Shown here: piece after piece, positions 1,998 to 63,810 of the stretch
How the letters are laid out: each line of letters begins with the position of its first letter
How positions within the stretch are numbered: position 1 is the stretch's first letter
From: Bacteroidales bacterium
Lineage (GTDB): Bacteria > Bacteroidota > Bacteroidia > Bacteroidales > P3
Reading direction: 5' to 3'
Length of the DNA: 64,000 nt
Assembly: GCA_017522065.1 (NCBI GenBank)
Contig: JAFXAD010000024.1
Span: 98,003 to 162,002 of the forward strand
The notes under the pieces: generated by a model
What the model was told of the DNA's origin: nothing
The model's input: the letters and a program-made list of their open reading frames with translations, nothing else
The model's database searches: none
Program-made: the position numbers and the translations under genes

Positions 1998-2073
1998 CAA
2001 ATCATTTCGACGCAATCCAAGTGCGACGGATAGCTACAGAACAAACATAACCAACATTAACAAAACAACAAGT

Positions 2074-3474: not shown

Positions 3475-3539
3475 CCCCCCCTTAAACCCTTTAACCCTAT
3501 AACCCTAAAACCTTAAAACCCTAAAACCCTATCCCCACC
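3475..3539. repeat. Degenerate CCCTAAA tract in the FKBP leader
   Basis: The gap between the arginine decarboxylase stop and the FKBP start is almost wholly made of CCCTTAAA/CCCTAAAA/CCCTATA units, about eight near-repeats of 7-8 nt. Similar tracts (as AGGGTTT on the + strand) occur at about 13834, 15668 and 26754. No promoter is recognisable within it. Confidence 0.75.
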
Positions 3540-4274
3540 ATGAAAAAAACAGCACTCTACACAATCTGCTTTGCAATTCTCAGTTTGGCAACTTCATGCC
3601 ATAACAAGGATTGCATCATAGTGAAAACCAACGGAACACCCGAACTGAAAACCGCTACCGACACCGTCAGCTGGGCAATGGGATTCTCCATTGCACAAAC
3701 CATAGCAGCAAGTGGCGTAGAGCCCAACCGCGAACTCCTCTTCGAAGCCATCTGCGCCACCCTCGACAGTCGTCAGCAGGCCCTGACCGAGAAAGAGACT
3801 TTCGACGTGCTCAAAAACCTCGACCAAATCATAGCCCGTTCAACGATGGAGAAACAGGAGAACGAGCTGAAAGAAGTTCGCGAACGCGAAGCAGCCTACT
3901 TCAAAGAGCTGACAGCGAACAATCCGAACATCGTCAAGAGCGACCTTGGATTCTACTACGAGGTCATCAAAGAGGGCAACGGCCCCAAGTCCCAAATCGG
4001 ACAAGTCGTCACCTTCGACTATAAAGGCAGTCTGACAAACGGTCAAATCATCGACCAGACCTACGGCAACCGCGAGCCTATCACCCACATCGTCGGTGAA
4101 CCGATGATGCCCGGCCTTGTCAACGGACTGTGCCTGATGAACGAGGGCAGCATCTACAAGTTCTATTTCCCAAGCGAGATGGCATTCGGAGCCAACGGCG
4201 GAGACAACATCCCCCCCTATTCAACCCTGATATACGAAGTCGAACTGCATAATATCCGCAAGCACAACAACTAA
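3540..4274 (+). CDS. FKBP-type peptidyl-prolyl cis-trans isomerase lipoprotein
   Basis: A 244-aa lipoprotein. The signal peptide ends in a lipobox (LATSC, Cys20), so the protein should be acylated and act in the envelope, probably on the periplasmic face of a membrane. Residues about 35-120 are an FKBP N-terminal helical dimerisation domain (DTVSWAMGFSIAQTI). Residues about 150-240 are the FKBP fold: VTFDYKGSLTNGQIID, MPGLVNGLCLMNEGS, and a PPYSTLIYEVEL last strand in place of the usual PPNATLVFDVEL. Its role is folding of exported proteins by proline isomerisation. The gene ends in a 4-bp convergent overlap with the beta-helix gene on the other strand. Confidence 0.9.
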   Translation: MKKTALYTICFAILSLATSCHNKDCIIVKTNGTPELKTATDTVSWAMGFSIAQTIAASGVEPNRELLFEAICATLDSRQQALTEKETFDVLKNLDQIIARSTMEKQENELKEVREREAAYFKELTANNPNIVKSDLGFYYEVIKEGNGPKSQIGQVVTFDYKGSLTNGQIIDQTYGNREPITHIVGEPMMPGLVNGLCLMNEGSIYKFYFPSEMAFGANGGDNIPPYSTLIYEVELHNIRKHNN

Positions 4275-5806: not shown

Positions 5807-5816
5807 AGTCAGAATG

Positions 5817-9230: not shown

Positions 9231-9352
9231 ATTGAAAATATGATAGATGGTATAAAATCGAGTGTATGAAAGAAACTGCAAAAATACAAAAAAAATAAAT
9301 ATATTATAGATATAATATATAATGAGATGAAGAAAAGCAAGGTGTGTGGCGG

Positions 9353-13744: not shown

Positions 13745-13833
13745 GTAATCCATCTGACGCTTAACGCAAAAAAACGTAGTTTATTGCATTTTGCATTCGT
13801 TTAAAATATTTTACTTAAATTGACGTTACGGGG

Positions 13834-31500: not shown

Positions 31501-32472
31501 ATACGCTGCATTGCTCGTATCGCCGACATCGCATACCGAACGGACTCGTACATGGTATTGCGTGTTGGGTATCAGCCCCTCGATGGTAATGACCGTGTCG
31601 CTGGTCTGCAACACAGTACCGCTACCGGCAGCTGCACTTGTTCCATATTCTACCAAAAACTCGGACGAATATCCTGGATTTCCCCACCGCAACGTCATAG
31701 TGGTGTCGCCAATCGCTATCGCCGACAACGACGACGGCGACGGGCATACGTTGACAGGGAACGCAAACCGATAGTAACGGTTCACGTCGGGCCAGCAGCC
31801 GGCCGGAATCATTGTGGCACATCCATTGGTATAGTGGGTGGCCACGTGGTTTTCGTCCACAATCCACACATCGGTCTCGTCAACGCACATTCCCTGCTGA
31901 TGGCTGGCATTTGGCAATCGTGGCGGTGCCTGAGAAGGATACACTATCTCGATGTCGCCATTTTCGTACATCTGCACCTGCCACCTCAGCAGCGACGGAC
32001 GTGAGTAAGAATTATACGTCTGCAATGCAAATTCGACAACAGTCACGCGGTCGGGTGCCTGTCCGAACGTCTGTTTATGCACATAATTGCTGTCCGATGA
32101 ATAGCCGGCGCACCCCATAAAATTGATTTTGGGGTTGTTGTTTCCTGCTCGCGAGGGATGGAACGGAGAACCCTGGTTGCCAGAGGACGACAAGGCCAGC
32201 ACGCTTCCGAGACGCAGGTTGCCGTCGTGAGTTACCGAGAACTGAGTGTACGTCGTGTCGGCGAACGGGAATTCGAATCCCATCAACTCTAACTGTGACG
32301 TCCTATAGTAGGCCGACGACCCGAGAGCAAGCAGGTTTCGAGTGCTGTCGAGTGTATACCAACGCGAACTGTCGTTGCCGGTACTGTACTGATAGTCGGC
32401 CAGGCTCTGACCGCGGACCACTGTCGCAATCATCAGCAACAATGCCGTAAGTGCATAATTCCTAACTCTCAT
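28504..32472 (-). CDS. Fibronectin type III T9SS type A surface protein
   Basis: 1322 aa. The signal peptide ends near VVRGQS (~22). The N-terminal ~240 residues are beta-rich (DGNLRLGS...). Five fibronectin type III domains follow (each with an LSW/LRW strand and a LxPNTxYxFxVRSxC[S/G]xGDTS ending). They alternate with jelly-roll/choice-of-anchor-J-like domains that begin FPYxCDFE and contain tracts such as GSYGMYIS and CTFDWRC. The last ~75 residues are a type A sorting domain (LSPNPTEGDVVL...GTYLVRVIGRDG, ending KLVKK). The protein should be exported by T9SS and attached to the surface. No catalytic domain is seen, and an adhesive or ligand-binding role is inferred. A TAACTTTG -7 element lies at 32501-32494. 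Confidence 0.9.
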   Translation of the reverse strand: MRVRNYALTALLLMIATVVRGQSLADYQYSTGNDSSRWYTLDSTRNLLALGSSAYYRTSQLELMGFEFPFADTTYTQFSVTHDGNLRLGSVLALSSSGNQGSPFHPSRAGNNNPKINFMGCAGYSSDSNYVHKQTFGQAPDRVTVVEFALQTYNSYSRPSLLRWQVQMYENGDIEIVYPSQAPPRLPNASHQQGMCVDETDVWIVDENHVATHYTNGCATMIPAGCWPDVNRYYRFAFPVNVCPSPSSLSAIAIGDTTMTLRWGNPGYSSEFLVEYGTSAAAGSGTVLQTSDTVITIEGLIPNTQYHVRVRSVCDVGDTSNAAYIIVRTLSVSPVSEFPYFCDFEEADERGGWIIPHGNLSTFWCVDTAVNNTLQGSYGMYISQDTGRTNTGGDQWIGSYAYRDMNLMSGDWRVTFDWRAYGEWEGSGSGVSYFHFMRAFLVPSSVNFTVQTPASFPLQPHSSAVPNGWIDLNPGNVFVGQQTWTSFEGVVSVPATGCYHLVFYWETDGYPPDLDMPAAVDNIGLEMLQCPQPQGIATDMTDGEVMLSWHRGGSETLWLLEYDGLEVYVQDTFYLITGLQPNTYYTFVVRAVCGAGDTSLASVATFRTPEGQAESHFPYSCTFEDTLAATQWVVIGDGQTNSWYIGSATNNTPDGTRSIYISSDGGTTNSYDGSTSSISYAYRRFLFDAGDYYCTFDWRCLGDEDFHFMRAFLVPATSLPSAGTFPIANNHYTAVPAGWVDLNPQSHYMSGETDWVTHTTTFTVADSGDYALLLMWENDDYTPGNPPAAVDNIAIGFVSCSIPFDVEALAMQTSVELSWNSGSDVSYWLVEYGDTSFIAYTPSCIVNGLDANTEYTFSISSICYSGDTSLSATQIVRTECEAVASLPYFCDFEAYALGMGSNEQFIPCWGRALNHSSYTPQISDDVEDGNNCLYWNITSGLLDSVYILLPELDESIDITYTELRFKAMMFDYMGLFEIPTVTVGTMADAESPQTFAPVATMSIDSDTGFANYSVSLDSYEGPNRHVAILATVSGDNYASAMFFMDDIGLYELQVCRRPTALMAETGVDSIALTWSVGGNEQSWIVSYGDTMVSTSLPSYVARGLVADTEYLFSVRSVCSFGDTSESLIGRFRTDTVATPPLPPDTVECLPVTDLQITIDDYELTVTWNGEAAMYIVQIISVGEVVYHSDTVTGSPYHFDFEGKAGYWQVRVRPLCEGGVLGEWRESEEFDTPLCIGIGKSEKIELVLSPNPTEGDVVLTIAGGEGSFDVRVYNLTGREVLSVGDAVLSSSALTLPVGGLPSGTYLVRVIGRDGTIVRKLVKK

Positions 32473-47421: not shown

Positions 47422-47429
47422 TATATTTG
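47422..47429 (+). promoter_or_regulatory. -7 element of the methylmalonyl-CoA mutase gene
   Basis: TATATTTG matches TAnnTTTG; the -33 box is weak (TTTC at about 47398). It lies within the longer frame (from 47427), so the start at 47472 is preferred. Confidence 0.6.
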
Positions 47430-47471
47430 CACTTTATTAGAATTAGTCCGAAAACAAATAATATACTGATA

Positions 47472-49631
<2,160 letters not shown>

Positions 49632-50095: not shown

Positions 50096-51781
50096 TCAGA
50101 ATTTGGTTAATTCTGACATTTCCTTTACACCTTGACGCTTGAGAATATCGACAATCATGCGAGGCACGGTGTCAGAACCGTTCAATGCACTGACAGCATA
50201 GAAGTTGACCGAACGGAAATCGTTCTCGGCAGTAATGAGAGTTGTACTGAGACCGAGGTCACGATCCACAACCTTACGCAGCGGATTCTCACCTTCTGCC
50301 ACAGCCGAGGTGTCGAGAGCATCAAGATAGCCCAAATCGGTCTTAGCGAGCACAAAGTTGAAATCGATACTCTTCAGTTTGCGGCCACTTTGGATGATGA
50401 ATTCGCGTAGGCGTCCGAATAGTTCATTGGGATTGTAGCGGTCTGATTCATCACCGCCATTGCTCTCCATCCACTGCATGAATTCATGGCTGAATCGTGT
50501 TCCTGCAGCCTTGATGTCAAAGCGATGCGGGTCGACCACAAAAGCGATACTCATCACGTTGTCATAGAACTGGAGCGCTTTCTTGCGGGCATCCTCACTC
50601 ATATTCTGGTTGAAAGCCTCGCCAGCGACATCATAGAAATAGAGATGATACGGCACCGGGCGTCCAGAGGGTTTGAACATGAGTTGCACGGCATGATAGC
50701 GTTCTGCTGTGGCAGTCTGGATATCACCACCGGCATGGATAAGACGTACCTTCTGTTCGATGTCGGTATCGTCGTCCTTGTCGACCTGCGACAAGGGCAG
50801 TTGGTACTTGTTCTGCAGTTCGTCAAGAGCAGTATAAATCATATACGACTTGCCCGCAGCGGGAGCGCCGACTATTCCGATATGGATATCGGTTCCGTAA
50901 GTCATCGGTCCGTCGTTAGTTATGAGGTTGTGGCACTTGCAACACTGGCGTGTGAGTTTGCCACGACCATTCAGCAGCATTGTCGGCAGTTTTTTGCCAT
51001 CGGGATTAGTATGGTAGAAAATACCGTACATATTGGGACGCAGTTTGACGGGGTGCGGTTTGCCGTCAACGATATAGTCGAAAGCTTTCTCCTCGCCGCA
51101 GTAGGGGCATTTGCGGTGCACCTTGTACATAGCGGTTACGACACCCTCGATGGCCCAGCATACACCGTCGGCAATGATGATTACAGCGGCAATGGCAAGA
51201 ACGAGCACGACAGGAGCAGCAATGATCAATAGGATACCCTGCCAGTTCTCATATCCAAACATGGCAACACCCACCGACATATCCCACACGTCGCTCAGCA
51301 GATCTTGACACCACTCTACAGCGTCAGTCATCGCATCGCGCAGCCAGCGTCCGCCTGCGAGGAGCAGACCGCCAACGATGGCAACAAGGATACCCCATAT
51401 CTGGGCGGCAAACAGACTGAGAACACCGCCCACAATGGCAATCCATGCCACGACTATTATTATAAATGCCAATATCTTAAGCACCCAACATATTACCCAT
51501 AAAACACCTTCGAAAACGCCTACCATCAGGAAGGACAATATGATTGACGCAAGTACTGCAAGGAAAAATGTCAGTACATACATGTATATCGGTGAGTCGT
51601 ATACCAACATGCGTTTCATGCCCATTTTGGAATGGCGACGATAGACCGGCTCGTCGTTCCAAAACCATTCAAAGAAGAAACACAACCAGAAACCTATGAA
51701 ATTTACAACTGTCAATCCGAAGATTATCCAACCCATCACACTTATAGACGATAGGTCAAAATTTCGAAACATATCCATCAT
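50096..51781 (-). CDS. Membrane-anchored zinc-ribbon GTPase (double-GTPase-like)
   Basis: 561 aa, last gene of the seven-gene locus. The N-terminal ~210 residues hold five hydrophobic helices (~13-35, 64-88, 92-119, 121-144, 182-206). A zinc ribbon follows (CPYC at 225-228 and CCKC at 280-283). The P-loop GTPase domain has Walker A GAPAAGKS (305-312), a G3-like YDVAGEAF (383-390) and a G4-like AKTD (479-482). The G3 block is nearly identical to that of the soluble GTPase two genes upstream (YDNAGESF). This resembles the DO-GTPase families linked to GAP1 proteins in predicted conflict systems. It probably tethers the system to the inner membrane. Confidence 0.78.
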   Translation of the reverse strand: MMDMFRNFDLSSISVMGWIIFGLTVVNFIGFWLCFFFEWFWNDEPVYRRHSKMGMKRMLVYDSPIYMYVLTFFLAVLASIILSFLMVGVFEGVLWVICWVLKILAFIIIVVAWIAIVGGVLSLFAAQIWGILVAIVGGLLLAGGRWLRDAMTDAVEWCQDLLSDVWDMSVGVAMFGYENWQGILLIIAAPVVLVLAIAAVIIIADGVCWAIEGVVTAMYKVHRKCPYCGEEKAFDYIVDGKPHPVKLRPNMYGIFYHTNPDGKKLPTMLLNGRGKLTRQCCKCHNLITNDGPMTYGTDIHIGIVGAPAAGKSYMIYTALDELQNKYQLPLSQVDKDDDTDIEQKVRLIHAGGDIQTATAERYHAVQLMFKPSGRPVPYHLYFYDVAGEAFNQNMSEDARKKALQFYDNVMSIAFVVDPHRFDIKAAGTRFSHEFMQWMESNGGDESDRYNPNELFGRLREFIIQSGRKLKSIDFNFVLAKTDLGYLDALDTSAVAEGENPLRKVVDRDLGLSTTLITAENDFRSVNFYAVSALNGSDTVPRMIVDILKRQGVKEMSELTKF

Positions 51782-51856
51782 AATATTGTCTTTTGTATGT
51801 TTAAAGATGTATAAAAAAATATTCCTTTATCAAATTGAACACAAAATCCACAGGTA

Positions 51857-54250
51857 TTATTTCTTTTTACCAATAGATTTGAAGAAGCGTACAACTTTTT
51901 TGAAGAATGTGTTTTCTTTAGCTATTGCGGTAGCGAGGTCGCTAAGTTTGGAGCTGCGGTTGCAGTGTTCCATAAAGGCATTGATGTCCTCTTTCTTCCA
52001 TCCAGCACAGTGAATGAACCACATTATGGTGTTCACGCGCTGAGAATGTTCCATCTTTGAGGTCCAGACGGTCTCGATGCGGCTTTGCTGTTCTTTCTTC
52101 GATAGGCGGCTCCATGGGGCTATGCTTGCATAGCGCTGCACGTCGTCGGCCGAACGGCGACGTTCGTCCAACCATGTCTTGAACAGACCGAGCGAGAAAT
52201 CGTCGTTGCTCTCGCCGCGTTCAATATCGAACTGCAGGTCTTCGAAATTTACATTCGACGGCATCCTACCTGAAAGCATGTTGTAAACGTTGTTCAAGCG
52301 ATCCATGCAGTTGTCCGACGAAGAGTTTATTCCGAGATCCAGTATAGATTTGACAACTTCATTCTTAGCTTTTGAAGGTTTTGCGTACAGATGGTCGGCG
52401 TACTGTTTGAAGAGCGAGTCGAGACGCATTGATACAAAAACATCTTTCGAAATCCTATTGCACAATTCGACCAGTTCCTTTGCCGTGCCGGTCTTTTTCT
52501 CCTTCATGTGCTTGCCGTAGTAGTCGGAAGCAGTCTTTGCCAGGACTGTAGCCACCTCATTCTTGGTGCCTTGAGAAGCATTGATGAGCATAGAGAATTT
52601 CTCTTCCTGCTGGTTGGAGCAAACGCCCGAAACCGTACGTTTGTAGAAAACAATGGCATCAGGATTGGCTGCAAACCAAGCGAGCAACTGGTTTGCATTT
52701 TTAGACTGAGGGTAGAACGATTCGCACAATTGTTCGCGGTCGCTTTCCTGCAGCGATTTGGACGCAACCATCTCGCTGAGCACGCGATCCATCTTGGTCG
52801 ACAATTTGTCGCCATAGTAATGTCTTACAAACTGTTGCCACAAGGACTGAAGACTGCATGCGCGCATGGTGTCGAAGAAGCGCTCCTCGTCTACGTTTCT
52901 GAGATTCAGCAGCGGGAGCATCATTTCGGGCGAAGTTTTGGAAGCTATTGCATTAAGATAATTGTCTTTGCCAAAGAAAAACGATGTCATCCATTCAATT
53001 GTACGCTCATCGATATGCAGCAAGGGACAATTTTTGCGGCGGCAATAGTCGTTCATCTTGATGGCAGTAATCATATCGGCGGCACTGATGGTCTGCGAGA
53101 GGCTTCGGTTGAGGGCGATATTGATTTTATTCCAAAGAACTGCAGCATCGTCCTGTGGCATAGAGAGCCTCATAACCTTGTCGATAAAGACATTATCGAT
53201 TTTAGCAAGAGGCAATTCGTCGGATGTCTGCACCGAAAGGAAGATATCGTACACGAATGGGTATTCCTGCGGATTGTTGTAGTCCACACCGAGGAAGTAG
53301 ACGAGCAGCTTGCGCAGTTTCTCAGGCTCGTGAGCTGCGACCAACTCATCCATTTTTGAGAAGAGGAAATTGTTCTCGATATTGGAAGTCTTGCCAGATG
53401 TAAAGTCGACATAGACGTAATTGTCGGGAAACTGCTGTGTGGTGTTCCAATCGTTCATGAAAGCCACGCGGTATTTGCTCGGCATGGTACCTTTCATGAC
53501 GTTGCTCGAGAATGGGAAATGAGCCATCACCTGGTCTGGAATATGCGACAGGAGGCGCACCAAAGCGTCCTGTTCAGCAGCTGTCGTCTTGACCATAACC
53601 TTGTGGAGCATAGGATCTTTACCCATTTTCTCATTCATATATGACTGGAGCATAGCCTTTGCGAGCAGCAGAAAGCGAGGATCGGACGCCCAATCGTTGT
53701 TGTCGACAGTTTCGACGATGAGCGACTGGTGTTGGGGCAGCAATTGCGGCTCACCCGTCAACAACATCTGCCATTCGTGGTTGTCGGGACGGCACGAGCC
53801 GTCGTGTGGCATGCAGATGCGACCATCGATCATGTCGTTAATCAACTCGAAAGGAGGCACCTGACGGAATACAAGCATGTGTGTGAAGAAATTGCTTCCG
53901 GCGCGTTTAGCAGCACCGTTGCAGAAATATCCATACTCGATGCCCACATAGACAGTACGTGCAAGGACATAGCGCTTGCTGCCGTCGCCAAGCGTGAGGT
54001 CGCGGTACTCGAACGTTCTGGGATATTCGAGCACAATGTCGGGATTTTGCTGCAACTGTGCTTGGGTCACAGTCTTTGATGTCGGCAGAGGGTAGCCCGG
54101 AGCGAAGAGGGCAGATATCTCCTCGGCTTCGCGCGTGGGCATGCCTTCGGTGAAGGTACGGACACCAAAACCTATGCTTCCCGACACGGCAGACTTCTGC
54201 GTCGAGGCATAGAAGATTTCCTCATAAGAGATGTTGTATTCTTTTTTCAT
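51857..54250 (-). CDS. GTPase-associated protein 1 (GAP1)-like protein
   Basis: 797 aa, soluble. The N-terminal ~150 residues (ISYEEIFYASTQ...GSIGFGVRTFTEGMP, then YVGIEYGYFCNGAAKRAGSNFFTHMLV in shorter matching blocks) have the look of the GAP1-N domain found beside TRAFAC-type GTPases. The remaining ~640 residues are mostly helical, as in GAP1-M/C regions, with no catalytic motif I can name. It lies between two zinc-ribbon GTPase genes on the same strand (13-bp and 75-bp gaps), exactly the expected context. It may act as effector, scaffold or GTPase regulator; this is inference. A family search would settle the domain call. Confidence 0.7.
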   Translation of the reverse strand: MKKEYNISYEEIFYASTQKSAVSGSIGFGVRTFTEGMPTREAEEISALFAPGYPLPTSKTVTQAQLQQNPDIVLEYPRTFEYRDLTLGDGSKRYVLARTVYVGIEYGYFCNGAAKRAGSNFFTHMLVFRQVPPFELINDMIDGRICMPHDGSCRPDNHEWQMLLTGEPQLLPQHQSLIVETVDNNDWASDPRFLLLAKAMLQSYMNEKMGKDPMLHKVMVKTTAAEQDALVRLLSHIPDQVMAHFPFSSNVMKGTMPSKYRVAFMNDWNTTQQFPDNYVYVDFTSGKTSNIENNFLFSKMDELVAAHEPEKLRKLLVYFLGVDYNNPQEYPFVYDIFLSVQTSDELPLAKIDNVFIDKVMRLSMPQDDAAVLWNKINIALNRSLSQTISAADMITAIKMNDYCRRKNCPLLHIDERTIEWMTSFFFGKDNYLNAIASKTSPEMMLPLLNLRNVDEERFFDTMRACSLQSLWQQFVRHYYGDKLSTKMDRVLSEMVASKSLQESDREQLCESFYPQSKNANQLLAWFAANPDAIVFYKRTVSGVCSNQQEEKFSMLINASQGTKNEVATVLAKTASDYYGKHMKEKKTGTAKELVELCNRISKDVFVSMRLDSLFKQYADHLYAKPSKAKNEVVKSILDLGINSSSDNCMDRLNNVYNMLSGRMPSNVNFEDLQFDIERGESNDDFSLGLFKTWLDERRRSADDVQRYASIAPWSRLSKKEQQSRIETVWTSKMEHSQRVNTIMWFIHCAGWKKEDINAFMEHCNRSSKLSDLATAIAKENTFFKKVVRFFKSIGKKK

Positions 54251-54263
54251 AAGGCTATGGATT

Positions 54264-55463
54264 TTAGTCTACAATATTAAGTTTGTACCCCAATTCGTCG
54301 AGACACCATACCAGCGGGTCGAGGACTCGGAACGGGTTCAAGTTTCCGATGGCACCATCTACCGGCTCGTCGCCAAGTGGCGATGTGCCGAAGAACTTGA
54401 AGTCGGTGAAATTGTTGGATACGTTGTTGATGAAGTTGTTGCCTTTTGCTTCCATGCATTCCTCACGAAGGAATGAGACAATGCCCGCATGAACCTGATC
54501 AAAATCGGAACGTTTGACACCATTAGCACCCTTCTGCTTGAAAAAGCTGTCGACACGATTTTTGCCAATACCCGGAACATCCTGCATATTGAAAACAGAT
54601 GCATTGTTGTAGATGCGATCGAACTTGTTGAGTACAATGGCCATGGGTTTTTTAAGTATACTGGCATTGGCTTTGCCCTCGTCGCTTTGACAATACTGTA
54701 TGATGTTGTTTGGCACAAAACCGAAGTCGGGATTATGTATCTTAAAGCTTGCGTCGCTTACATTCAGTTTGTTCTTAACATCCTGAATCTGCTGCACATC
54801 AATCAGACAGATAAAGGCGTCGCTATGAACAAGGTATTTAGCATCGGGCACCATGTCGGCCACGCTATGAAAACTCTCGCCTGCATTGTCGTAGAAAACA
54901 AGGAAAACACTGGGTTGGCCCTTCTGACACATTTCGAAGATGAAGGGAGGACGTTTCTTTCCCTCACGGCGTTCGGTAGGCTGTGGTGTCACTTTGTCGC
55001 GATAGATTGGACCATACAGTTCCTCATTATAGCGATATTGTGTGCTCTCCTCAACGGTGTCGGCAATGGACGAAGCCATCACGCCTATGTCACCCAGTTT
55101 GTAACCGTATCGCATCAGTTCTTCGATAAGGACAGATACAAACACTGTTTTTCCTGCACTTTGGGCACCGATTATAGATATGATTTTGCCCCCCTCCTCG
55201 ACCATGTGGGCGGGAACCTGGCTATGGCAATGGGGACAGATCACCTTGTAGGTCTTCTGATGACATTCCGGACAGATGCCATATTCCGGAGCACCAAAAA
55301 GTTTCTTTTTGGCTGGAACTACAGGGTGGAGGATGCGGTCCTCGCCAAGCAGTTCGCTGAGGCGATCGTCGCGTCTGGATACACAGTCGGGGTTTGAGCA
55401 GCGAAAGAGAATGTCTTTCAGTTCGAAAGGTGTATAGCAATGGGGGCAGATACGTTGAGCCAT
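54264..55463 (-). CDS. Soluble zinc-ribbon TRAFAC-type GTPase (double-GTPase-like)
   Basis: 399 aa. Two N-terminal zinc ribbons (CPHC 6-9 with CSNPDC 22-27; CPEC 64-67 with CPHC 76-79) precede a GTPase domain: Walker A GAQSAGKT (99-106), YDNAGESF (191-198) as G3, and NKFD (279-282) as a clear G4. No TM segment is present. It shares its ribbon-plus-GTPase layout with the membrane GTPase encoded two genes later, so the locus has a soluble and an anchored version. The start lies 17 bp after the stop of the preceding gene. I infer a GTP-dependent switch in the assembly. Confidence 0.82.
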   Translation of the reverse strand: MAQRICPHCYTPFELKDILFRCSNPDCVSRRDDRLSELLGEDRILHPVVPAKKKLFGAPEYGICPECHQKTYKVICPHCHSQVPAHMVEEGGKIISIIGAQSAGKTVFVSVLIEELMRYGYKLGDIGVMASSIADTVEESTQYRYNEELYGPIYRDKVTPQPTERREGKKRPPFIFEMCQKGQPSVFLVFYDNAGESFHSVADMVPDAKYLVHSDAFICLIDVQQIQDVKNKLNVSDASFKIHNPDFGFVPNNIIQYCQSDEGKANASILKKPMAIVLNKFDRIYNNASVFNMQDVPGIGKNRVDSFFKQKGANGVKRSDFDQVHAGIVSFLREECMEAKGNNFINNVSNNFTDFKFFGTSPLGDEPVDGAIGNLNPFRVLDPLVWCLDELGYKLNIVD

Positions 55464-55480
55464 AGATGTATGTGTTTGAG

Positions 55481-57547
55481 TTATTTTATACTTTTGAATT
55501 CTGGACTGATAATCAGTTTGTCGGCTTGAGACAGGTCGGCTGCAGCAACGCGGAAATAGAGTTCCTGTTTCGACTTGCGCTCATAGTTGACGACAATCTC
55601 ATAGTTTGTTCCGGGAGTGACCTGCTCGGGCAGCACGGTGGTCATAGGCTGCAATCGGTCGAGTCCTATGGGGAAAGAGCCTTCGGCAGCATAGAGCGAC
55701 AATCCTACCGGCAACTGCTCGTTGCAGCGGACCACAATCGTGTATTTGTTCTTTGCGAAGAGTCCTCCTTTGCGAATTTCGATGAAGTCGACCATGACCT
55801 TATGCAGCGAAAAAGACTTGCTTTCGAAAGAACTCTCTACCAGCGAGCCGTCGTGAAGAGCGATGATAGAGGCGACCGACAACTCGGCCGTCGACGTGTT
55901 GGACGGGAGCGAGTAGGTAGCGTTGTTTTGCGGATGGTCGGCCACAAAGATGTCGTATTGCTGCTGGTTGCCACTGTCCGGCTTGACACGAATGCGCACA
56001 CCATCAATACCGTTCCAATCCCACCGCAGCATAGCGCTGGTGTCGCTGCAATCCATAGCAACCCCTTGCGGAGGGAGCACTGAGACTACCGAGACTTGGT
56101 TGCCCGCACAGCACACACCGTTGTCCTCTACCACTGGCAGATAGAAGCGCTGTCCACTGAAGTCCTTTACCACCGTCATGCTGTCGCCGACGGGCCTAAG
56201 AGCCTGTGCCGTCAACGCCGAAATGTCGACAACATCGCCCTTAGAGTACGGGAAAACCTTGTCCGCGACATAGATGCGCAGCAAACCCGTGCCAGGATTG
56301 GTCCACCGAATACGAGCCTCGTTGGTAAGGTTTTCTACCGCGAGCGATGCCGGCAGTGGAACACGGCCATTGCGTGGAACCGCAGGAGCCTGCGCCGTAG
56401 CTGAAACGGAAGACATAGGCTCTGAAGCCACTGACGTTGACTGCACAGGTGGAGCGGCAACAGGTGCAAAACCGTCTGCATTCCCAGAACTCATGCGCAA
56501 CTGGGCGAAGACTGCATTCCATACCGAGCGCTCCGATTCAGGGGTGACATTGATAACCACCGAAAAACGCGTCTTGAAGACATCGACAAAATAGTCGGTA
56601 GCCACTTCGCCTTGCAATATGACATCGATGGCAGCGGGTTGCCCGCCATTGTTGTAGACCAGGTTTTCAACCTCACTGAGGGTTACGCGAGCATCGTCGC
56701 ACTGAACCAGCCTGTTCTTGAGCTGAGTCATGAAAATCTGGTATTCAAAATCGACCCCCAGGTCAAGACGCACCGTTCCCTGAACGATAGGCATTCCCGA
56801 ATCGAGCACCTTGCGGGCTTCCTTCATAAGCACCTCGTTGTTGGAACTGCGATTGATTGCCAACCCAGGATTATTCATGCAAATCTGTTCATAGATGAAG
56901 TCGGCACAAACGCGGTAGCGCGGGTCCTGCCCTACTCCTGTAACGGTATGAGACCATGCTACCGGCGAACTCTTCGACGGGACGTAACTAACTGTCATTT
57001 CGTTGCCCGAACCGAACACGAGCAGTTTACCTCTATCGTTGTTAGACAGCGTGTTGAATAAGCATACATTGTACAGACCTATTGCTGCCACATTGGAATA
57101 GCCGGAGCCTTCAAACATGTCGCACACCATATCGGCCTCCGCCTTCGAGACATCGTTGGCAAAGTCGAGATAGAGCGGGAATGCGGTACGGTTGGCATCG
57201 ATTGAACTGTCTGGAGACGAGATACATTTCTCGAGAAAAAGCGAGAAATAATGTTCCAAACCCACACGTAGCAGGTGCGCTGCAGGCAGACGGCTGTTAT
57301 CCCACGCGAACGATGCGTCGGCATCGGCCAGAAGGCCGAAATAGTCAGCAAAAGCATTTTCGTCATGCTCCACGGCTCTGTCGGCAGCATATTGTCCCAT
57401 CAGCAGCCTGTCTCCATTGAGATAGAATGCCAGCGGGATTGCGGCGGATTTATCGTCAAAGAGGTACTCCTGGACTATGCCGTTCTCTATCTGGTAATGG
57501 AAACGCACCTTGCGACGCGACAGGCTGATGACAACACAGTAATTCAT
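55481..57547 (-). CDS. Degenerate Hsp70-like protein fused to beta-sandwich domains
   Basis: 688 aa, no signal peptide. Residues ~1-335 follow the Hsp70/actin order: an N-terminal strand pair lacking the DxGTT/S phosphate loop (MNYCVVISLSRRKVRF), LNGDRLLMGQYAADRA (like the NGDxxVGxxA region), a degenerate phosphate-2 (LLVFGSGNEMTVS, 176-187), LMKEARKVLDSG, and an adenosine-site-like VILQGEVATDYFVDVFKTRF (309-328). The catalytic residues look lost, so it may be a pseudo-ATPase. A Pro/Ala/Ser linker (~358-398) leads to two fibronectin-III-like domains (~400-590) and a final beta domain. Its place inside the operon suggests a structural or adaptor role. Confidence 0.65.
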   Translation of the reverse strand: MNYCVVISLSRRKVRFHYQIENGIVQEYLFDDKSAAIPLAFYLNGDRLLMGQYAADRAVEHDENAFADYFGLLADADASFAWDNSRLPAAHLLRVGLEHYFSLFLEKCISSPDSSIDANRTAFPLYLDFANDVSKAEADMVCDMFEGSGYSNVAAIGLYNVCLFNTLSNNDRGKLLVFGSGNEMTVSYVPSKSSPVAWSHTVTGVGQDPRYRVCADFIYEQICMNNPGLAINRSSNNEVLMKEARKVLDSGMPIVQGTVRLDLGVDFEYQIFMTQLKNRLVQCDDARVTLSEVENLVYNNGGQPAAIDVILQGEVATDYFVDVFKTRFSVVINVTPESERSVWNAVFAQLRMSSGNADGFAPVAAPPVQSTSVASEPMSSVSATAQAPAVPRNGRVPLPASLAVENLTNEARIRWTNPGTGLLRIYVADKVFPYSKGDVVDISALTAQALRPVGDSMTVVKDFSGQRFYLPVVEDNGVCCAGNQVSVVSVLPPQGVAMDCSDTSAMLRWDWNGIDGVRIRVKPDSGNQQQYDIFVADHPQNNATYSLPSNTSTAELSVASIIALHDGSLVESSFESKSFSLHKVMVDFIEIRKGGLFAKNKYTIVVRCNEQLPVGLSLYAAEGSFPIGLDRLQPMTTVLPEQVTPGTNYEIVVNYERKSKQELYFRVAAADLSQADKLIISPEFKSIK

Positions 57548-57552
57548 GATAT

Positions 57553-57578
57553 AGTTTAAAGTTTAAAGTTTAAAGTTT
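57553..57578. repeat. GTTTAAA heptamer tract
   Basis: Four units of AGTTTAA(A) lie directly upstream of the Hsp70-like gene, in the 105-bp gap of the seven-gene locus. The remaining gap is AT-rich without a clear promoter. Confidence 0.65.
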
Positions 57579-57652
57579 ATTAATCGCAGATTTTGAGAAT
57601 AATAAATAACTTTATCGTTACAACTTGTTATTAAATCATTACGTAGTTGGAA

Positions 57653-60600
57653 TTATCGGCTAAGACAGGGCATCAGATATTTGTCGTAGAACTTCATACC
57701 CTCAAGGATGATGATGGGAGCCACAAAGTCGAAAGGTTCTTTGGTGTTCTTGCTCTTGTTGACCTTAGCGGCATAGTACTCAGGCAGGTTGGTGATGAAG
57801 TCGTTAATATTCATATTGTTGAATCCATTCATAAACTCCTGCTGAGTCATCTTGAGTCCGAAGAGGGTCGAAGTGAACTGGTAGAAAGTACCTGCAAACT
57901 CCATAAATTTGGGACAGGGAGGCATACCCGGCTGTGGCATGTACATAAAGTATGAGCCGAGATACTGCATCATTTCGGGAGTGATACTGTTTGTGGCCGG
58001 AAGCGGAACAGGTTGTCCGTTCTGGATAGCTACAAATCCATCTTCTCCAAGTATTTCTATAGCCTCTTCATTTTGGGGCACAAGAAGTTTCTTTGCTGTG
58101 GAAGCAAGTCCTTTCGAGACCTCGTACTTCACATTGTCATCGTCACCCTGGTTAGTGGGGTTGATTTTAGGCGGTCCGAAAAGGAACTGCTGGGCAACAG
58201 CGAGGCCACCCATACCGTTGATGAACTGCTGCTGGAAATAGTTGTTGGCCGACGATGGGTCGACAGCGGGCAGCCAATCGAAAATGCGGGCTCCCTTGCC
58301 GGCAAAGACCACGTTAACCTGAGGTGTCCATGCGGCACCATTGAAGGTGATGTTGTTGCGCTCGGTCGAACTGCGGAGCGAGTTGATCATCTTGTAGGTC
58401 AGCTGACCGGCGTAGTAGAGGATAAGACCAGTCACGTAGGCATTGACGCTCATTATTTCAGGGCAACTGGTGCTGAGCATCGAGTAAAAACTGTTGAACT
58501 CCTCAGGGGTGTTGAGTCGGTCGAGAATCTGGTCGAAATAGTAGGGTGCCATTTCGGGTGTGAACTTGACGGGTTCGACATTGAGCCCCTGAACGCGGTA
58601 GTTGTGCTGGTTACAAACGTTGACAAGCACATCCTTAATATTCTTCGAATTGCGTGTTGCGCGACTAACACGTTGTGCGGCAAAACGAATAGAGTTCTGT
58701 TTGACAAGAGCCAGACAGTTCTGTCCGTCTTTGGGATTACGCATCTGGCAGAGTACCGATATGTCGGTTGTTGATCCTCCGACATCGAAACAGAGTGTAA
58801 GAGAGTTGACATCGTTGTTGACGTCGCTATTGGCGATGAAGTTGGCCACAGCACGGCTCTCGGTCATACTGTCGGGTGTTTCTCCCGCTCCACTGTCGCC
58901 ACCGAAGGGATTGTCACCCTGAGTGTCTCCCATTACTCTGAAATTGAATGTCGGTATGCCTGCATCGATATTGATATTAACCGTCTGAGGAGCCTCATTC
59001 TGGTTGCCCCATCCACCCCCGACGGGTTGAGGTTGGGCGGCAGGCGGTGTGGCGGTTGCGCCCCATCCACCGGCAACAGGCTGCTGTCCACCAGCAGGAG
59101 CACCCCATGGCGATGTCTGTTGCATGGGCTGACCCGCAGGAGCGCCCCATGGCGACGGCTGCTGCCCGCCTAAGGCTGCCGTATTGCCTCCGGCATTGCC
59201 CCATCCATTTGTGAATAGATTGGCTCCGTTGGAGTCGACATCGACGTTGCCACCAGCAACATTCAGAGTGGTTCCGCCTACAATGGGATTGACATCCACC
59301 AGACTACTCCAAATACCCTTATAGGTATTAATCATATTCTTCGACATTGACGACGGATACGACCAGTTGAGAATAACCGGTATTACTCCCTCTTCGAACA
59401 ACTGGGCATAGATATGAAGGAGCAACGAGCCGAGATAGGCCTTCTTGTATGCATTTTCGATAGCATTCTCCGACCACTTCATATCGTACACTATCTCGGC
59501 CGAGCCGCTGCGACGATAGAAGAGCTTGTAGCGGTTTTCGGTAACGCCCTCGATAGGCAGATGCTTCTCGAAGCATGGGAAACCACCGGTAACAGCCTGG
59601 CCTATTATCATATCGCGAGTACTGTTGCGTCCATCTTCGGGCAGACGTTTGCTGTCGTGAATCGTAAGCAAGCTCTTGATCGAATTGCTACCTATCTCTT
59701 CGTTTTGGAAGAAGAAGATTTCATCCTCCATTGCCGGTTGGATGTTGTTGTTCTTCTTGTCGGAATTGAAGAGGGAAATACGTTTATTGGTGAGCTTCAG
59801 ACCTTTGGCCATAGTGGAGTCGCTATTGCCGTGTACGCGGTATGCCACCGATGTGTTGGTCGAGCCGAAGTCGATACCCAGCGTTGCAGGACGAAGGTCC
59901 TTAGTGTCGCGCAGAAGGTCACTGGGAAGTCCGGGGAGGTTTCCTCCCGTGGAGTTGTATCGCAGGATGGCGTAACCGCTCTCCTGGTCGGCAGTCATCA
60001 GGCGGATGCCTTTGAAAGGATGCGAGCTCTCGTAAATCTCGTATTTATATTGGTTGTCGGAGACGCGCATATCGGAAACGACATGCAGCTTGACTTTCAG
60101 GCGGTCTTCGAACTTAGTGGGAACAGCCACTTTGCCTTCTTTGGCCAAATAGATTGGATTGGGCAGTTCGACATTGGGATTGGACGACGAGGGCATGGGG
60201 CCATCCATAAAGATGGGGAAGCGTGCGTCGTCCATGTCGCCAACAAAGGGCGTTGCGCGGAAGCGGCATTGCGACGAGGCGGTATTGTGCGGCATTTCGC
60301 TATAGAGAAAATAGCGGTTCCACTGCTTGCTGATAAAGTTTGGCCAAATGAGGATATCATGTCCCTGTATGGCATTGGGAACGGCGGTATAAACCTTCTC
60401 GATAGGCTGCGCTTCACCGTCGACCGAGACGAGCGAAAGCTTCACTTTCAGGTTGTGAGTCTCGACCATCGGGTCGAACACCGCCGTAAGGCGCGACTGC
60501 ACATCAGTATCGGGATTGATACCCACGAGGGCATCGACATTGTTGCCAAACACGTTGAGACCCAGAGGGCTCAGCGGCAGGGTGAAATAGTAATACGTAC

Positions 60601-61699
60601 CCGGCATCGCCTGCACTTCGGCACGCATCAGCGACACTGCGTTGTTACGCAAGAAATTTGGATCCTTCGAAGCCTCGTTGCCGTAATGTACACCGGCGAT
60701 GACGGCACCGTCGTCGAGCAGAAGTTTGCGGGGATCGAAGGGAATTCCGTTTTCAAGTATGCCGTTCATGATGATACCATTCGAGCCGTACATCTGGGTC
60801 GAATAGTTGAAGAGCACGCGGAAAGCACTCTGGCTGAAGCAGCTGACCTGCGGAACGCTGGCACTGTCGAGCTTCATTCCGTTAGCGGCAGCGTATTGCT
60901 CCATCTCCTCTTTCCATCGCTGCAGATTGTTGGTTACATTGACAGGATCCATTCGGATATCATCAGGCAGGCCGGCATACATCTTGACGAATTCGGGCAG
61001 CGAGCGGTTGAGTATATGCTTCACGTAGCCATACAGTTGCTGCAGCTGTTCCTGGTTCATCTTCGATTTGAGGGGATCGGTGAACTTCTTGGTGTTCACA
61101 TCGATAAAGGGCTGATGGTCGGCATTGTCCTCCACGCGGTAGGCCACGGAGGTGAAGAGGAGACTTTCGGGCGAAGTGCCACCAACAACCTTGCCACGAT
61201 ACTTGACAACGTTGATGTAAGGTATCTTCTTCTCGTTCTCGGCCACATCCTGGTCGCACCAGAGGGGGCGACGTTCGAAGAGCATGTTGCCGAAAGCGCC
61301 CTTAGGCTCATAGATGTTGGCCGTTTCGCCAATGGGGAGATGGTCAGAATATTCGAGCGAAATGCGTTCAGCCTCGACATGAGCATAGTCGATGGCGATG
61401 CAAGCGATGAAGCCCCGCCATTCGTCGACAAGTTGCTTGTAGAACTTCAGTAGACCGTCATCAACCTTGTCGGCCTCGTTGACGTAGTCGATAGCCAGCT
61501 TGAAGAGGTTGGCGCGAGCGAAAATCGTGGGCATACCCGACACAATGGTTCCCATGTTGTCGTCGCCGAGAGCCGGGGTTACGATGTCACGTGTGAAGGT
61601 GTTTATTTGCTGTCCGATGTCATTCCAGATGGCCTGGTTGCCGTTAGGGATGGAACGCGATTTGACCTTGATTACTAAAGGGGTTAGATTGTCTGCCAT
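57653..61699 (-). CDS. Large protein with a split actin/Hsp70-type ATPase domain
   Basis: 1348 aa, no signal peptide or TM. The first ~600 residues match nothing I recognise. An actin/Hsp70-like domain then begins with phosphate-1 DFGSTNTSVAYR (610-621). It is interrupted by a low-complexity Gly/Pro/Gln/Trp segment (~830-900; the unit SPWGAPAG occurs twice, plus GWG motifs), and resumes with phosphate-2 DVGGSTTDISV (972-982) and an adenosine motif FAGKGARIFDWLP (1132-1144). The nucleotide-site residues look intact, so ATP binding is likely. It starts 12 bp after the tubulin-like gene. A filament- or scaffold-forming role is inferred. Confidence 0.75.
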   Translation of the reverse strand: MADNLTPLVIKVKSRSIPNGNQAIWNDIGQQINTFTRDIVTPALGDDNMGTIVSGMPTIFARANLFKLAIDYVNEADKVDDGLLKFYKQLVDEWRGFIACIAIDYAHVEAERISLEYSDHLPIGETANIYEPKGAFGNMLFERRPLWCDQDVAENEKKIPYINVVKYRGKVVGGTSPESLLFTSVAYRVEDNADHQPFIDVNTKKFTDPLKSKMNQEQLQQLYGYVKHILNRSLPEFVKMYAGLPDDIRMDPVNVTNNLQRWKEEMEQYAAANGMKLDSASVPQVSCFSQSAFRVLFNYSTQMYGSNGIIMNGILENGIPFDPRKLLLDDGAVIAGVHYGNEASKDPNFLRNNAVSLMRAEVQAMPGTYYYFTLPLSPLGLNVFGNNVDALVGINPDTDVQSRLTAVFDPMVETHNLKVKLSLVSVDGEAQPIEKVYTAVPNAIQGHDILIWPNFISKQWNRYFLYSEMPHNTASSQCRFRATPFVGDMDDARFPIFMDGPMPSSSNPNVELPNPIYLAKEGKVAVPTKFEDRLKVKLHVVSDMRVSDNQYKYEIYESSHPFKGIRLMTADQESGYAILRYNSTGGNLPGLPSDLLRDTKDLRPATLGIDFGSTNTSVAYRVHGNSDSTMAKGLKLTNKRISLFNSDKKNNNIQPAMEDEIFFFQNEEIGSNSIKSLLTIHDSKRLPEDGRNSTRDMIIGQAVTGGFPCFEKHLPIEGVTENRYKLFYRRSGSAEIVYDMKWSENAIENAYKKAYLGSLLLHIYAQLFEEGVIPVILNWSYPSSMSKNMINTYKGIWSSLVDVNPIVGGTTLNVAGGNVDVDSNGANLFTNGWGNAGGNTAALGGQQPSPWGAPAGQPMQQTSPWGAPAGGQQPVAGGWGATATPPAAQPQPVGGGWGNQNEAPQTVNINIDAGIPTFNFRVMGDTQGDNPFGGDSGAGETPDSMTESRAVANFIANSDVNNDVNSLTLCFDVGGSTTDISVLCQMRNPKDGQNCLALVKQNSIRFAAQRVSRATRNSKNIKDVLVNVCNQHNYRVQGLNVEPVKFTPEMAPYYFDQILDRLNTPEEFNSFYSMLSTSCPEIMSVNAYVTGLILYYAGQLTYKMINSLRSSTERNNITFNGAAWTPQVNVVFAGKGARIFDWLPAVDPSSANNYFQQQFINGMGGLAVAQQFLFGPPKINPTNQGDDDNVKYEVSKGLASTAKKLLVPQNEEAIEILGEDGFVAIQNGQPVPLPATNSITPEMMQYLGSYFMYMPQPGMPPCPKFMEFAGTFYQFTSTLFGLKMTQQEFMNGFNNMNINDFITNLPEYYAAKVNKSKNTKEPFDFVAPIIILEGMKFYDKYLMPCLSR

Positions 61700-61711
61700 A
61701 ATAACACCTCC

Positions 61712-63364
61712 TTATAAGTTAAATTGTTGAGCAATAACGATACCATTGTAGATATGGGCAAGGAATTTCTCCTTGGTAGTATTGACGTGCTGGCTGTCGG
61801 TCGGATGGCCTTGATTGACAAAGTTCTTGATATATCCGTCGAATCCGTTGGGCCACCAATGCGTCTTGTCGGGGAAAATCTCACCCACCTTCAGACGCTT
61901 GGGCGAGAGTTCGGCAAGCTGTGTCGGGAACGCCTCGGGACGGAAGATGAATTTGCCCGGTTCGACCGACTTGTTGATTTGGTATATCCAGCCAGGTACG
62001 AAGCGATCCTTGTCGTACTCGTAGGCAAACATTCGCAGATAGTTGTCGATTTCTTCCAGTTCGTCGTCCTGCAACGTGTCGTACTCCCTCACCTTCAGTT
62101 CGCGCAGCTGTGCCAGGAAGGATTTAGTTCCGCGGTCGCCACCGTTGCCGCGCGAGCCCTCATAGTAAGAGAGCGATATGTGGGCGAATGAGAAGAATGC
62201 GCCCAGTTTGTTGAGGAACTTGTCGGCATCCTGCTGTCCGACGAAGTCACGAGCCGAGAAGTTGAACGCATTGTTCTGGAGTTCGATGTCGCGGAAAAGG
62301 TACTGTATTCCTTCCGTATTGAACTCCTTGTCGGGCAGCGTGAAGAAATCGTATGCAGCACAGGCGCACATGAGCTCGACTACATGGCAAGCGTTTTTCT
62401 GGTTGGCTCCGCCAGTTGTGGTCTCTTTCTCCTTGCCGTCGTCGAGCTTAGAGGCATCTATCGGCCAACCGATATGGTACATGCGTTTGTACGTTTTCTG
62501 CACGGTCGGGTCGCCCTGATAGAACTGCATAGCAGCCTGACTGTTGAGCGGGAAGAAGTTGGAATCGGCTATCACGCCCTCCTTCTTGAGCTGGTTGTCG
62601 TCCGGTTTCTTGAACGAAAAGTATTGTGTCAGCAGCGTGCTGCCGAACTTCGTCTTGGAAAGATCCAACGTGGCCTGGTCGCGGAAGCGGATTTTGACAG
62701 CGTCGCGGAATGCAACAGGAATGATGGGGATGGACGAAGCTCCCGTGCCTCCGAACACGGAGCCGAAGACAAACACGCGGGCATTTTCGCCAGCCTGCTG
62801 GAGTTTGATAAGGAACTTTTCGAGGTTATAGTCGCTCTCGGTACGATCCTTCTCACTGCCCGATGTCAGACGGCGTGCCGACTCGATGATGGCATGGTAC
62901 ATCAGATGGCTTCCCAAGTGGGTTTGAGCACGGTAGCCATGATCGAGGTTGAAATTCTGCACGGTTTCACGCTCCAGGAAGAGGTCACTGAGATCTTCGT
63001 TCTGTCGCTTTGTAAGCTCATCGCCGTCCGCAAGGCGCGAAATGTTGCGATACGTATTCCGGGTGCTTGAATTATAGTCTGTTACGAACTTGTAGAAATT
63101 GATTTTTGCAGAGAAGAAGGTATCCGTGTTCGGCGTACCGCCTTTTGCGTCGGGATTGTCACTATGGCCTTCTGTTTTAATCTTGTTATACAGATCGATA
63201 AGTATCTGTGTGCGACCAAGATTGCCGTTGGTGCTATCGGTGTCGAGCATCATAACCTCAATGGTCTGGTTGTTGAACATGCCGATTGCACAAAGATGGA
63301 CAAACGACTCCAGGCAACGCATACCTGTGCCGCCAATGGCCAGTACGAAAAGCTTTTCGTCCAT
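61712..63364 (-). CDS. Tubulin/FtsZ-like GTPase-fold protein
   Basis: 550 aa. The N-terminus LFVLAIGGTGMRCLES (5-20) is the first glycine-rich nucleotide loop and MLDTDS (39-44) follows as in tubulin-like proteins. The tubulin signature appears as FGGTGAS (204-210) in VFVFGSVFGGTGASSIPII, preceded by a helix-strand pattern like that of FtsZ. This fits the Tubulin_2-type (tubulin-like domain-containing) family, members of which occur in multi-gene loci of unknown function. The C-terminal ~300 residues are family-specific. No membrane segment is seen. It probably binds GTP; polymerisation is unproven. Confidence 0.8.
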   Translation of the reverse strand: MDEKLFVLAIGGTGMRCLESFVHLCAIGMFNNQTIEVMMLDTDSTNGNLGRTQILIDLYNKIKTEGHSDNPDAKGGTPNTDTFFSAKINFYKFVTDYNSSTRNTYRNISRLADGDELTKRQNEDLSDLFLERETVQNFNLDHGYRAQTHLGSHLMYHAIIESARRLTSGSEKDRTESDYNLEKFLIKLQQAGENARVFVFGSVFGGTGASSIPIIPVAFRDAVKIRFRDQATLDLSKTKFGSTLLTQYFSFKKPDDNQLKKEGVIADSNFFPLNSQAAMQFYQGDPTVQKTYKRMYHIGWPIDASKLDDGKEKETTTGGANQKNACHVVELMCACAAYDFFTLPDKEFNTEGIQYLFRDIELQNNAFNFSARDFVGQQDADKFLNKLGAFFSFAHISLSYYEGSRGNGGDRGTKSFLAQLRELKVREYDTLQDDELEEIDNYLRMFAYEYDKDRFVPGWIYQINKSVEPGKFIFRPEAFPTQLAELSPKRLKVGEIFPDKTHWWPNGFDGYIKNFVNQGHPTDSQHVNTTKEKFLAHIYNGIVIAQQFNL

Positions 63365-63425
63365 TATATACGATAATTAAATGTTTATACTAAAAAAAGA
63401 AGTGTAAAGCATACAAACAGAAACA

Positions 63426-63449
63426 GCTTGGAATGGGTGCATTCCAAGC
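63426..63449 (-). other. Hairpin between the small membrane gene and the tubulin-like gene
   Basis: GCTTGGAATG (63426-63435) pairs perfectly with CATTCCAAGC (63440-63449) around a 4-nt loop. It lies 13 bp after the upstream stop. On the minus strand it is followed by TGTTTCTGTTTG, a weak T-rich tail, so it may be a partial terminator/attenuator or an mRNA processing site. Confidence 0.6.
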
Positions 63450-63462
63450 CGTTTGTCGCTGT

Positions 63463-63810
63463 TTAGAACCACTGTCCTATCTTGCCGTTTTTGAAGATTT
63501 TGCTCATCACGAAGCCAAGGACCACATACAGAACAAATCCGATGGCGGTTCCGATGCTCAGAGCAGTCATGAACTTTGAGTGCATCGTTGGAACCGTGAT
63601 AGAGGGGGCTATGGCCAGGAAACCGACAAGGAATGTCGCCACAGGGGTCAGGAAGGCAAAGAGCCAGAACCATACTCTGCGTTTCTTTTTGTCGGTACGG
63701 TTAACACCCGTTTCGAACTTGATGAGGCTGGACACCAATGCGGCGAGAAGCAGAAAGGCTATCGAAATGACGACAGCAATCACGTAGGCAGTTAAAGTTT
63801 TATCGTTCAT
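63463..63810 (-). CDS. Small three-helix membrane protein
   Basis: 115 aa with three hydrophobic helices (~8-30, 46-68, 81-104), a short basic loop (RTDKKKRRVWFW) and a basic C-terminus. I do not recognise the family. It is the first gene of the seven-gene minus-strand locus, 98 bp before the tubulin-like gene with a hairpin between, so it may be expressed at a different level. Directly upstream lies the dispersed repeat copy C, and no TAnnTTTG promoter is obvious between them. Confidence 0.7.
   Translation of the reverse strand: MNDKTLTAYVIAVVISIAFLLLAALVSSLIKFETGVNRTDKKKRRVWFWLFAFLTPVATFLVGFLAIAPSITVPTMHSKFMTALSIGTAIGFVLYVVLGFVMSKIFKNGKIGQWF

Follow-up and report, generated by a model that had tools for sequence, protein, structure and literature searches.

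The stretch of DNA analyzed here (the window) comprises 64,000 nucleotides from a Bacteroidales bacterium and corresponds to the final 64 kb of contig C21 in a draft assembly of 2.62 Mb and 62 contigs. Between positions 50096 and 63810 it carries seven intact consecutive open reading frames, all on the minus strand, which encode a small membrane protein, a tubulin-like protein, a giant protein of the actin/Hsp70 superfamily, a protein of no recognized family and two GTPases flanking a GAP1 protein. The intergenic gaps are short (98, 12, 105, 17, 13 and 75 bp in transcription order), and the compact same-strand run described in a first-pass annotation of the sequence is confirmed at its coordinates. 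Contig C21 stops 190 bp past the first gene, mem, and the locus is therefore truncated in the window. In transcription order, the genes and the motifs within them, followed by the gene that bounds them, are:

63463 to 63810, minus strand: mem, 115 residues, three predicted transmembrane (TM) segments (open reading frame and hydropathy scan)
61712 to 63364, minus strand: tub, tubulin-like protein of 550 residues
63317 to 63337, minus strand: N-terminal glycine-rich motif of tub, IGGTGMR (alignment of homologues)
62732 to 62755, minus strand: T4-like tubulin signature of tub, FGGTGASS (alignment of homologues)
57653 to 61699, minus strand: act, 1348 residues, an N-terminal region of about 600 residues and a predicted actin/Hsp70-superfamily ATPase
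59840 to 59878, minus strand: presumed phosphate-1 motif of act, GIDFGSTNTSVAY (aligned homologues and motif inspection)
58892 to 59197, minus strand: low-complexity insert of act rich in G, A, P and Q, between phosphate-1 and phosphate-2 (composition)
58751 to 58792, minus strand: phosphate-2 motif of act, CFDVGGSTTDISVL (aligned homologues; region matched by MreB and Hsc70)
58280 to 58306, minus strand: presumed adenosine-type motif of act, FAGKGARIF (aligned homologues and motif inspection)
55481 to 57547, minus strand: hsp, 688 residues, no recognized family
54264 to 55463, minus strand: gtp, DO-GTPase2 of 399 residues without TM segments, with zinc-ribbon-like cysteines (PF19993)
51857 to 54250, minus strand: gap, GAP1 protein of 797 residues with a GAP1-N2 domain (PF20013)
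50096 to 51781, minus strand: tmg, membrane DO-GTPase2 of 561 residues (PF19993)
47427 to 49631, plus strand: mutB, methylmalonyl-CoA mutase (PF01642, E 9e-237), a housekeeping boundary outside the system

Sequence comparison supports tub as a tubulin-like but remote protein, in keeping with the tubulin/FtsZ fold proposed for it earlier. Like members of the Pfam family Tubulin_2 (PF13809), with which it shares signature motifs and profile matches, tub carries a glycine-rich T4 signature after its N-terminal GTP-binding half; its own score of 15 bits nevertheless lies beneath the curated cut-off of 27, and a genome-wide Tubulin_2 search did not report it. Residues G11-G14 and F204-G208 are invariant in 16 homologues, with R16 almost so, and the latter region aligns with FtsZ and Tubulin_2 proteins. 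The profile evidence is weak or was obtained with homologues: one homologue matches the Tubulin family with an E value of 2.7e-5, Tubulin_2 finds three other members of the tub family (E 1.1e-5 to 8.2e-5, all under the cut-off), and its match in the relative G224 spans model positions 2-179. When the family is compared with the sequences of solved structures, 26 of 28 matches are to FtsZ or tubulin/FtsZ entries (best E 0.05), and profile-profile comparison of tub with three Tubulin_2 proteins yields an alignment confined to the T4 signature, with a probability of 42%.

The adjacent act is similarly supported, by its sequence, as a member of the actin/Hsp70 ATPase superfamily. A profile of 15 homologues matches MreB (E 8.3e-7), DnaK (E 1.6e-4) and many Hsc70 chains among solved structures, over the phosphate-1 and phosphate-2 regions, and no Pfam family is matched by act. 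The intact motifs previously ascribed to such an ATPase are present, namely a phosphate-2 motif and two further motifs that we take to be of the phosphate-1 and adenosine type. Unlike the MreB and DnaK superfamilies, with which it shares these motifs and profile matches, act has about 600 extra N-terminal residues, and this region resembles nothing found in our searches. The insert between phosphate-1 and phosphate-2 contains repeated SPWGAPAG-like units and is absent in four aligned homologues.

Downstream, gtp and tmg score 36.7 and 31.7 bits, respectively, against the Pfam family DO-GTPase2 (PF19993, cut-off 27). In keeping with DO-GTPases of the TRAFAC type, both combine CPxC pairs with a conserved-glutamate Walker B (DNAGE in gtp, DVAGE in tmg): gtp has the P-loop GAQSAGKT, the Walker B motif YDNAGESF and NKFD, and tmg has GAPAAGKS, YDVAGEAF and, in place of NKFD, AKTD. 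Zinc-ribbon Pfam models match gtp below their cut-off, and none is listed for tmg. The expectation of two GTPases sharing YDxAGE[AS]F, one of them soluble, accordingly holds, except that a simple hydropathy scan counts six hydrophobic segments in tmg, all N-terminal to the GTPase domain, and not the five TM segments first described. The GAP1-like assignment of gap, whose gene lies 13 bp from gtp, likewise stands, with 32.5 bits against GAP1-N2 (PF20013, cut-off 24). The GAP1-M middle domain is detected in a homologue from locus L092 (25.4 bits, cut-off 24) and gives no match in the window protein; an EAD7 match at the C-terminal end of gap (E 0.02) falls under the cut-off and is not claimed. 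GAP1-N2 is rare, occurring in 2 of 395 genomes of the phylum and 2 of 61 relatives, with the window genome included in both counts.

As for the remaining two genes, mem is the small membrane protein recognized earlier, and the three TM segments seen in its hydropathy scan recur in 61 of 66 homologues. The view of hsp as a degenerate Hsp70 with beta-sandwich domains, by contrast, had to be abandoned: its N-terminus recalls the start of Hsp70 by eye only, Pfam, a 12-member profile run against PDB sequences and hhalign against act lend the assignment no support, and Pfam-type scans gave no match to FN3 repeats in the C-terminus. In related loci an eighth gene, X, encoding about 500 residues, precedes mem. 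The only copy of X in the window genome opens contig C49, oriented as it should be were C49 the continuation of C21, and past it lie relatives of c1 and of a 267-271-residue gene, the genes that flank X in loci L044 and L045. Homologues of X show a loose lipobox pattern (50 of 68) and the motif D[FLM]S[DSN]G[MIL] (42 of 68); X is itself homologous to lipoproteins of more distant tub loci (hhalign 94%, E 1.2e-7), in which ExSxSM and SD motifs recall a vWA metal site.

The treatment of these genes as one system is supported by comparative analysis, in which the same ordered set recurs in other genomes. A search of named genomes with the window tub sequence alone returned no match; the alignment-based search succeeded and recovered at least 579 relatives, nearly all of the named ones from Bacteroidota, and the best 80 loci were analyzed (all counts out of 80 below), with genes called by a simple script and verified by six-frame profile search. 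Among these 80 loci act is found in 74, X in 71, mem in 66 and hsp in 57, short contigs being scored as misses, and act follows immediately after tub in 73; in L103 it lies 6.8 kb from tub, and in L083 the sequence stops 135 bp past tub. The recurring ordered core is X-mem-tub-act(-hsp). Across the 395 genomes of the phylum, tub is present with E < 1e-30 in 13 and more weakly in two (G255, E 5.0e-6; G310, E 3.8e-6), and act, matched over at least 316 model positions (E 2.5e-60 or better), in 12, all of them among the 13 with a strong tub. In the thirteenth, G430, tub is broken and no act is recognized. Short act matches occur in 317 further genomes and, among those listed, fall mostly on the phosphate-2 region of open reading frames of about 330-470 residues, as expected of MreB-like proteins.

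Furthermore, the tub and act trees agree, with a Mantel r of 0.978 over 76 loci as compared with 0.14 for the best of 1000 shuffles. Left out before tree building were L042, L043, L034, L036, L083, L106, L113, L117 and L069 (tub in two pieces); 86 of the 95 tree rows have a long act beside tub, and the exclusion of ten distant rows gave the 76 compared. The trees are quick ones, and near-copies (L044/L045, L090/L092, L078/L079) inflate the locus counts. Three tub-act contigs (L078, L106 and L113) come from metagenome-assembled genomes labelled Saccharibacteria, Eubacteriales and Clostridia. L078 is probably misbinned, because its tub is identical to that of L079, from Bacteroidales, and the other two may be as well.

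What follows the core on the same strand varies. Of the 80 loci, 39 carry TerD, nine carry gtp and gap, five have only a family of the CW_7 type and 27 none of these; among the 56 with at least 9 kb of downstream sequence the corresponding numbers are 34, 9, 4 and 9. TerD and the gtp-gap pair never share one core-strand run (0 of 80). TerD was counted only upon a phmmer match to a Pfam-verified TerD, which holds in 39 of 39 loci (in L028 Pfam itself gives E 4.3e-51), and a family initially labelled TerD-like was set aside, as none of its 17 proteins matches TerD in Pfam and nine match CW_7. In six loci (L109, L118, L120, L123, L101 and L009) tub and act precede a family of proteins of about 190-250 residues, some with CW_7 repeats, possibly a third type of module. 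The window genome (90.8% complete) has no TerD match.

The ten GTPase-type loci, the window included, sit at four places of the tub tree, whose strongly supported branches force at least four module changes; when TerD is set against GTPase with firm TerD assignments only, the tub tree requires four changes and the act tree six. In five of eight GTPase-type genomes, as in the window, GAP1 is directly followed by a second DO-GTPase with TM segments, and the other three (L147-L149) have TIR-like genes among those after GAP1. One such gene in each of L147 and L149 passes the TIR_2 cut-off of 28 (34.9 and 33.6 bits), and two more in L149 and the sole one in L148 fall under it. Among 92 stretches examined, including eight extensions of other loci, matches to a profile seeded with the TIR-like genes are confined to GTPase-type loci. 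Beside the TIR-like genes, L147 also encodes (9265-10758) a GldM-like protein (E 1e-19) of the gliding and type IX secretion motor family, in which a zinc ribbon occupies the N-terminus.

At one chromosomal site the unit is found in some genomes and missing from others. In the window, as in L143 and L144, mutB adjoins tmg, and in L044 and L045 the whole unit sits between mutB and c1, with c1 next to X. In the window genome, X is followed by a 266-residue gene and then c1; the two contigs of that genome have the flanks seen in L044 and L045. In six of eight relatives (G001, G002, G004, G008, G009 and G012) mutB, c2 and c1 are contiguous without the locus, and there is no tub match; the remaining two, G005 and G025, carry other genes at the site, and G005, whose mutB is 98% identical to that of the window, has no tub match either. 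Among 25 genomes of the genus, its own included, tub occurs only in the window genome and in G017, where other genes follow the core, including one for a CW_7 protein. Contents of the mutB-c1 site range over the locus, an LRR_5/BspA-like gene (L183, 2523-4333) and other genes, and the site is possibly an insertion hotspot. Elsewhere in the window (positions 9353-13753 and 28504-32472), two large proteins are predicted to be secreted; one, of the IgGFc-binding family, carries a CHU_C type IX signal domain, and the other, an fn3 protein, has a Por secretion tail.

More distant relatives preserve a similar order. Several distant tub loci present a lipoprotein, a small protein with three to four TM segments, tub and a giant act-like open reading frame, and in L029, L030, L032, L035 and L127/L128 tub and the act-like gene are followed by a ZorA-/ZorB-like pair as detected with our own profiles. 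The ZorB of L030 is backed by PADLOC (E 7.7e-11); its putative ZorA has no PADLOC match and reaches MotA_ExbB with E 0.024, which leaves the ZorA label weak. In L038 one protein matches ZorA (E 1.2e-8), along with coiled-coil proteins. On plasmids, tub was found in five cyanobacterial records, and in the two inspected, from Picosynechococcus (L155) and Gloeothece (L156), a three-TM protein, tub and act follow in that order as a reduced form of the core, the Gloeothece tub being annotated as tubulin-like; these loci suggest spread beyond Bacteroidota. A plasmid search with act gave no match. The gtp search found two Rhodococcus plasmid records, and the one inspected (NZ_CP113952.1; L190, 1448-24704) carries a locus with Tubulin_2 (PF13809), GAP1-N2 and DO-GTPase2 and no act match. 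No tub match was found among 50,697 phage records, and five IMG/VR contigs have relatives.

The GTPase-GAP1 half of the locus belongs to a described class. In passages of Kaur et al. 2020 (eLife, PMC7159879), predicted GAP1-N2/DO-GTPase conflict systems occur with tubulin or with Hsp70, and they feature one or two DO-GTPases, zinc ribbons, a TM region in one of the GTPases where there are two, and GAP1-N2, with tubulin, an extracellular vWA protein and Hsp70 each reported in subsets. By virtue of this half, and as far as those passages go, the window locus is a variant of these systems. One passage has such GTPases occurring together with homologues of tubulin and a protein of the HSP70 family, so that a tubulin with an Hsp70-superfamily protein is not new per se, and the initial claim that no described system has both tubulin-like and actin-like parts was too strong; section 29 of the same paper describes the tubulin and HSP70 themes as non-overlapping and the tubulin theme as restricted to firmicutes and actinobacteria. 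In contrast to the systems as those passages present them, the remote tubulin and the giant actin-like protein are almost always paired in Bacteroidota, with TerD and the GTPase-GAP1 half alternating. The tub-act core, the TerD/GTPase alternation and the Zor-like relatives are absent from these passages, the passages of PMC11237479 make no mention of tubulin, and neither these features nor a tub-act-TerD or tubulin-ZorAB combination was found among the papers listed in our searches, which cover few subscription journals. With regard to Zorya, whose ZorA and ZorB form a MotAB-like motor, the likeness lies in the ZorB-like gene of L030 and the ZorA-matching protein of L038; in a comparison restricted to these two components, PADLOC finds neither among the seven window proteins.

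We propose, with a probability of roughly 0.5, that X, mem, tub, act and hsp together with the GTPase-GAP1 switch constitute an eight-gene, envelope-associated response system whose likeliest use is defense at the envelope. In such a system the lipoprotein X would sense an event outside the inner membrane and mem would relay the signal, and tub (with GTP) and act (with ATP) could build or remodel one nucleotide-driven assembly beneath the membrane, which hsp might adapt to the module. Together with GAP1, the soluble DO-GTPase would read the state of the assembly and trip the membrane DO-GTPase, the putative effector acting on the membrane. The conserved half (lipoprotein, TM protein, tub and act) would accordingly serve as sensor and assembly, and the variable half as decoder and effector. 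The membrane-tethered, NTP-controlled assembly envisaged in the first-pass annotation fits the three-TM mem, the TM GTPase and the lipoprotein X. In some loci lacking a second GTPase, GAP1 is followed by TIR-type genes, which suggests growth arrest or cell suicide as the output. Defense against phage or other envelope attack would be the likeliest use, and an immune role is suggested.

A number of observations weigh against this proposal. Five loci (L098, L099, L105, L112 and L121) have tub and room downstream and no recognizable act, and may represent a separate subfamily with other partners; the act profile used to score co-occurrence was itself built from tub-linked loci, including scored genomes, with two candidates scored per genome. 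Nor are the modules strictly exclusive, because the GTPase-type L092 carries, on the opposite strand and about 2 kb upstream of X, a pair of TerD genes beside genes that by eye resemble TerY-type vWA proteins (1661-6015). The Rhodococcus plasmid locus, which adjoins a TerC/TerD/TerF-like cluster, is after L092 the second case, here in another phylum, in which the two modules are physically linked. Pedobacter loci have one architecture and cluster in the tree, a pattern that resembles vertical inheritance more than an arms race. A vWA identity for X, read from a motif by eye, was given no name by Pfam and PDB searches, and against PADLOC-DB the seven proteins gave marginal matches only (E 0.018 and 0.045). 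Finally, the many loci with TerD genes and cation P-type ATPases point to ion or envelope stress no less than to phage.

This last point agrees with a rival account that we consider rather unlikely, in which the locus would serve envelope or ion-stress homeostasis, akin in role to Ter (tellurite) systems, with tub and act repairing or bracing the envelope and TerD with cation pumps, or the GTPase switch, acting as alternative readers of membrane damage. TerD is indeed the commonest module, filling that position in 39 of the 80 homologous loci, it lies beside both L092 and the Rhodococcus locus, and a cation P-type ATPase profile matches 15 of the 92 stretches, none of them of the GTPase type; set against this are the TIR domains that score above cut-off downstream of GAP1 in two genomes of the GTPase type, the presence or absence of the unit at one site between relatives and the lack of a TerD match in the window genome. 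An improbable reading is that of a cytoskeletal or positioning apparatus for shape, secretion or DNA positioning, in which tub and act filaments would do mechanical work: co-inheritance of tubulin- and actin-superfamily proteins as a pair and the presence of ZorB-like and GldM-like motors in the vicinity of some members are in its favor, but the varying GTPase-GAP1, TerD and TIR modules are ill-suited to a purely structural role, and basic morphology is disfavored because a strong tub match occurs in only 13 of 395 genomes. DO-GTPase and GAP1-N2 do turn up in the absence of tub, on the short contigs L042 and L043, as they would if an ordinary, known GAP1-N2/DO-GTPase conflict system merely lay downstream of an unrelated tub and act; this we hold to be very improbable, given the same order after act-hsp in nine more loci, at four places of the tub tree when the window is counted, and the short intergenic gaps.

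Beyond the envelope-associated response system proposed for the window, we suggest, somewhat more tentatively, that these loci may represent an undescribed class of machine, with an envelope-anchored core of lipoprotein, three-TM protein and tubulin-like and actin-like proteins, the last two working as a GTP-driven and ATP-driven pair, and plug-in modules that would set input and output: TerD with a cation pump, DO-GTPase-GAP1 with a TM GTPase or TIR, or a ZorB-like motor. Tubulin and actin ordinarily belong to separate polymer systems. If the proposal is correct, one core would link cytoskeletal folds, Ter stress genes, GAP1/DO-GTPase conflict systems, TIR effectors and perhaps Zorya-like motors, and the role of tubulins and Hsp70/actin ATPases in predicted conflict loci would become testable in cultured Pedobacter, Chitinophaga and other Bacteroidota.

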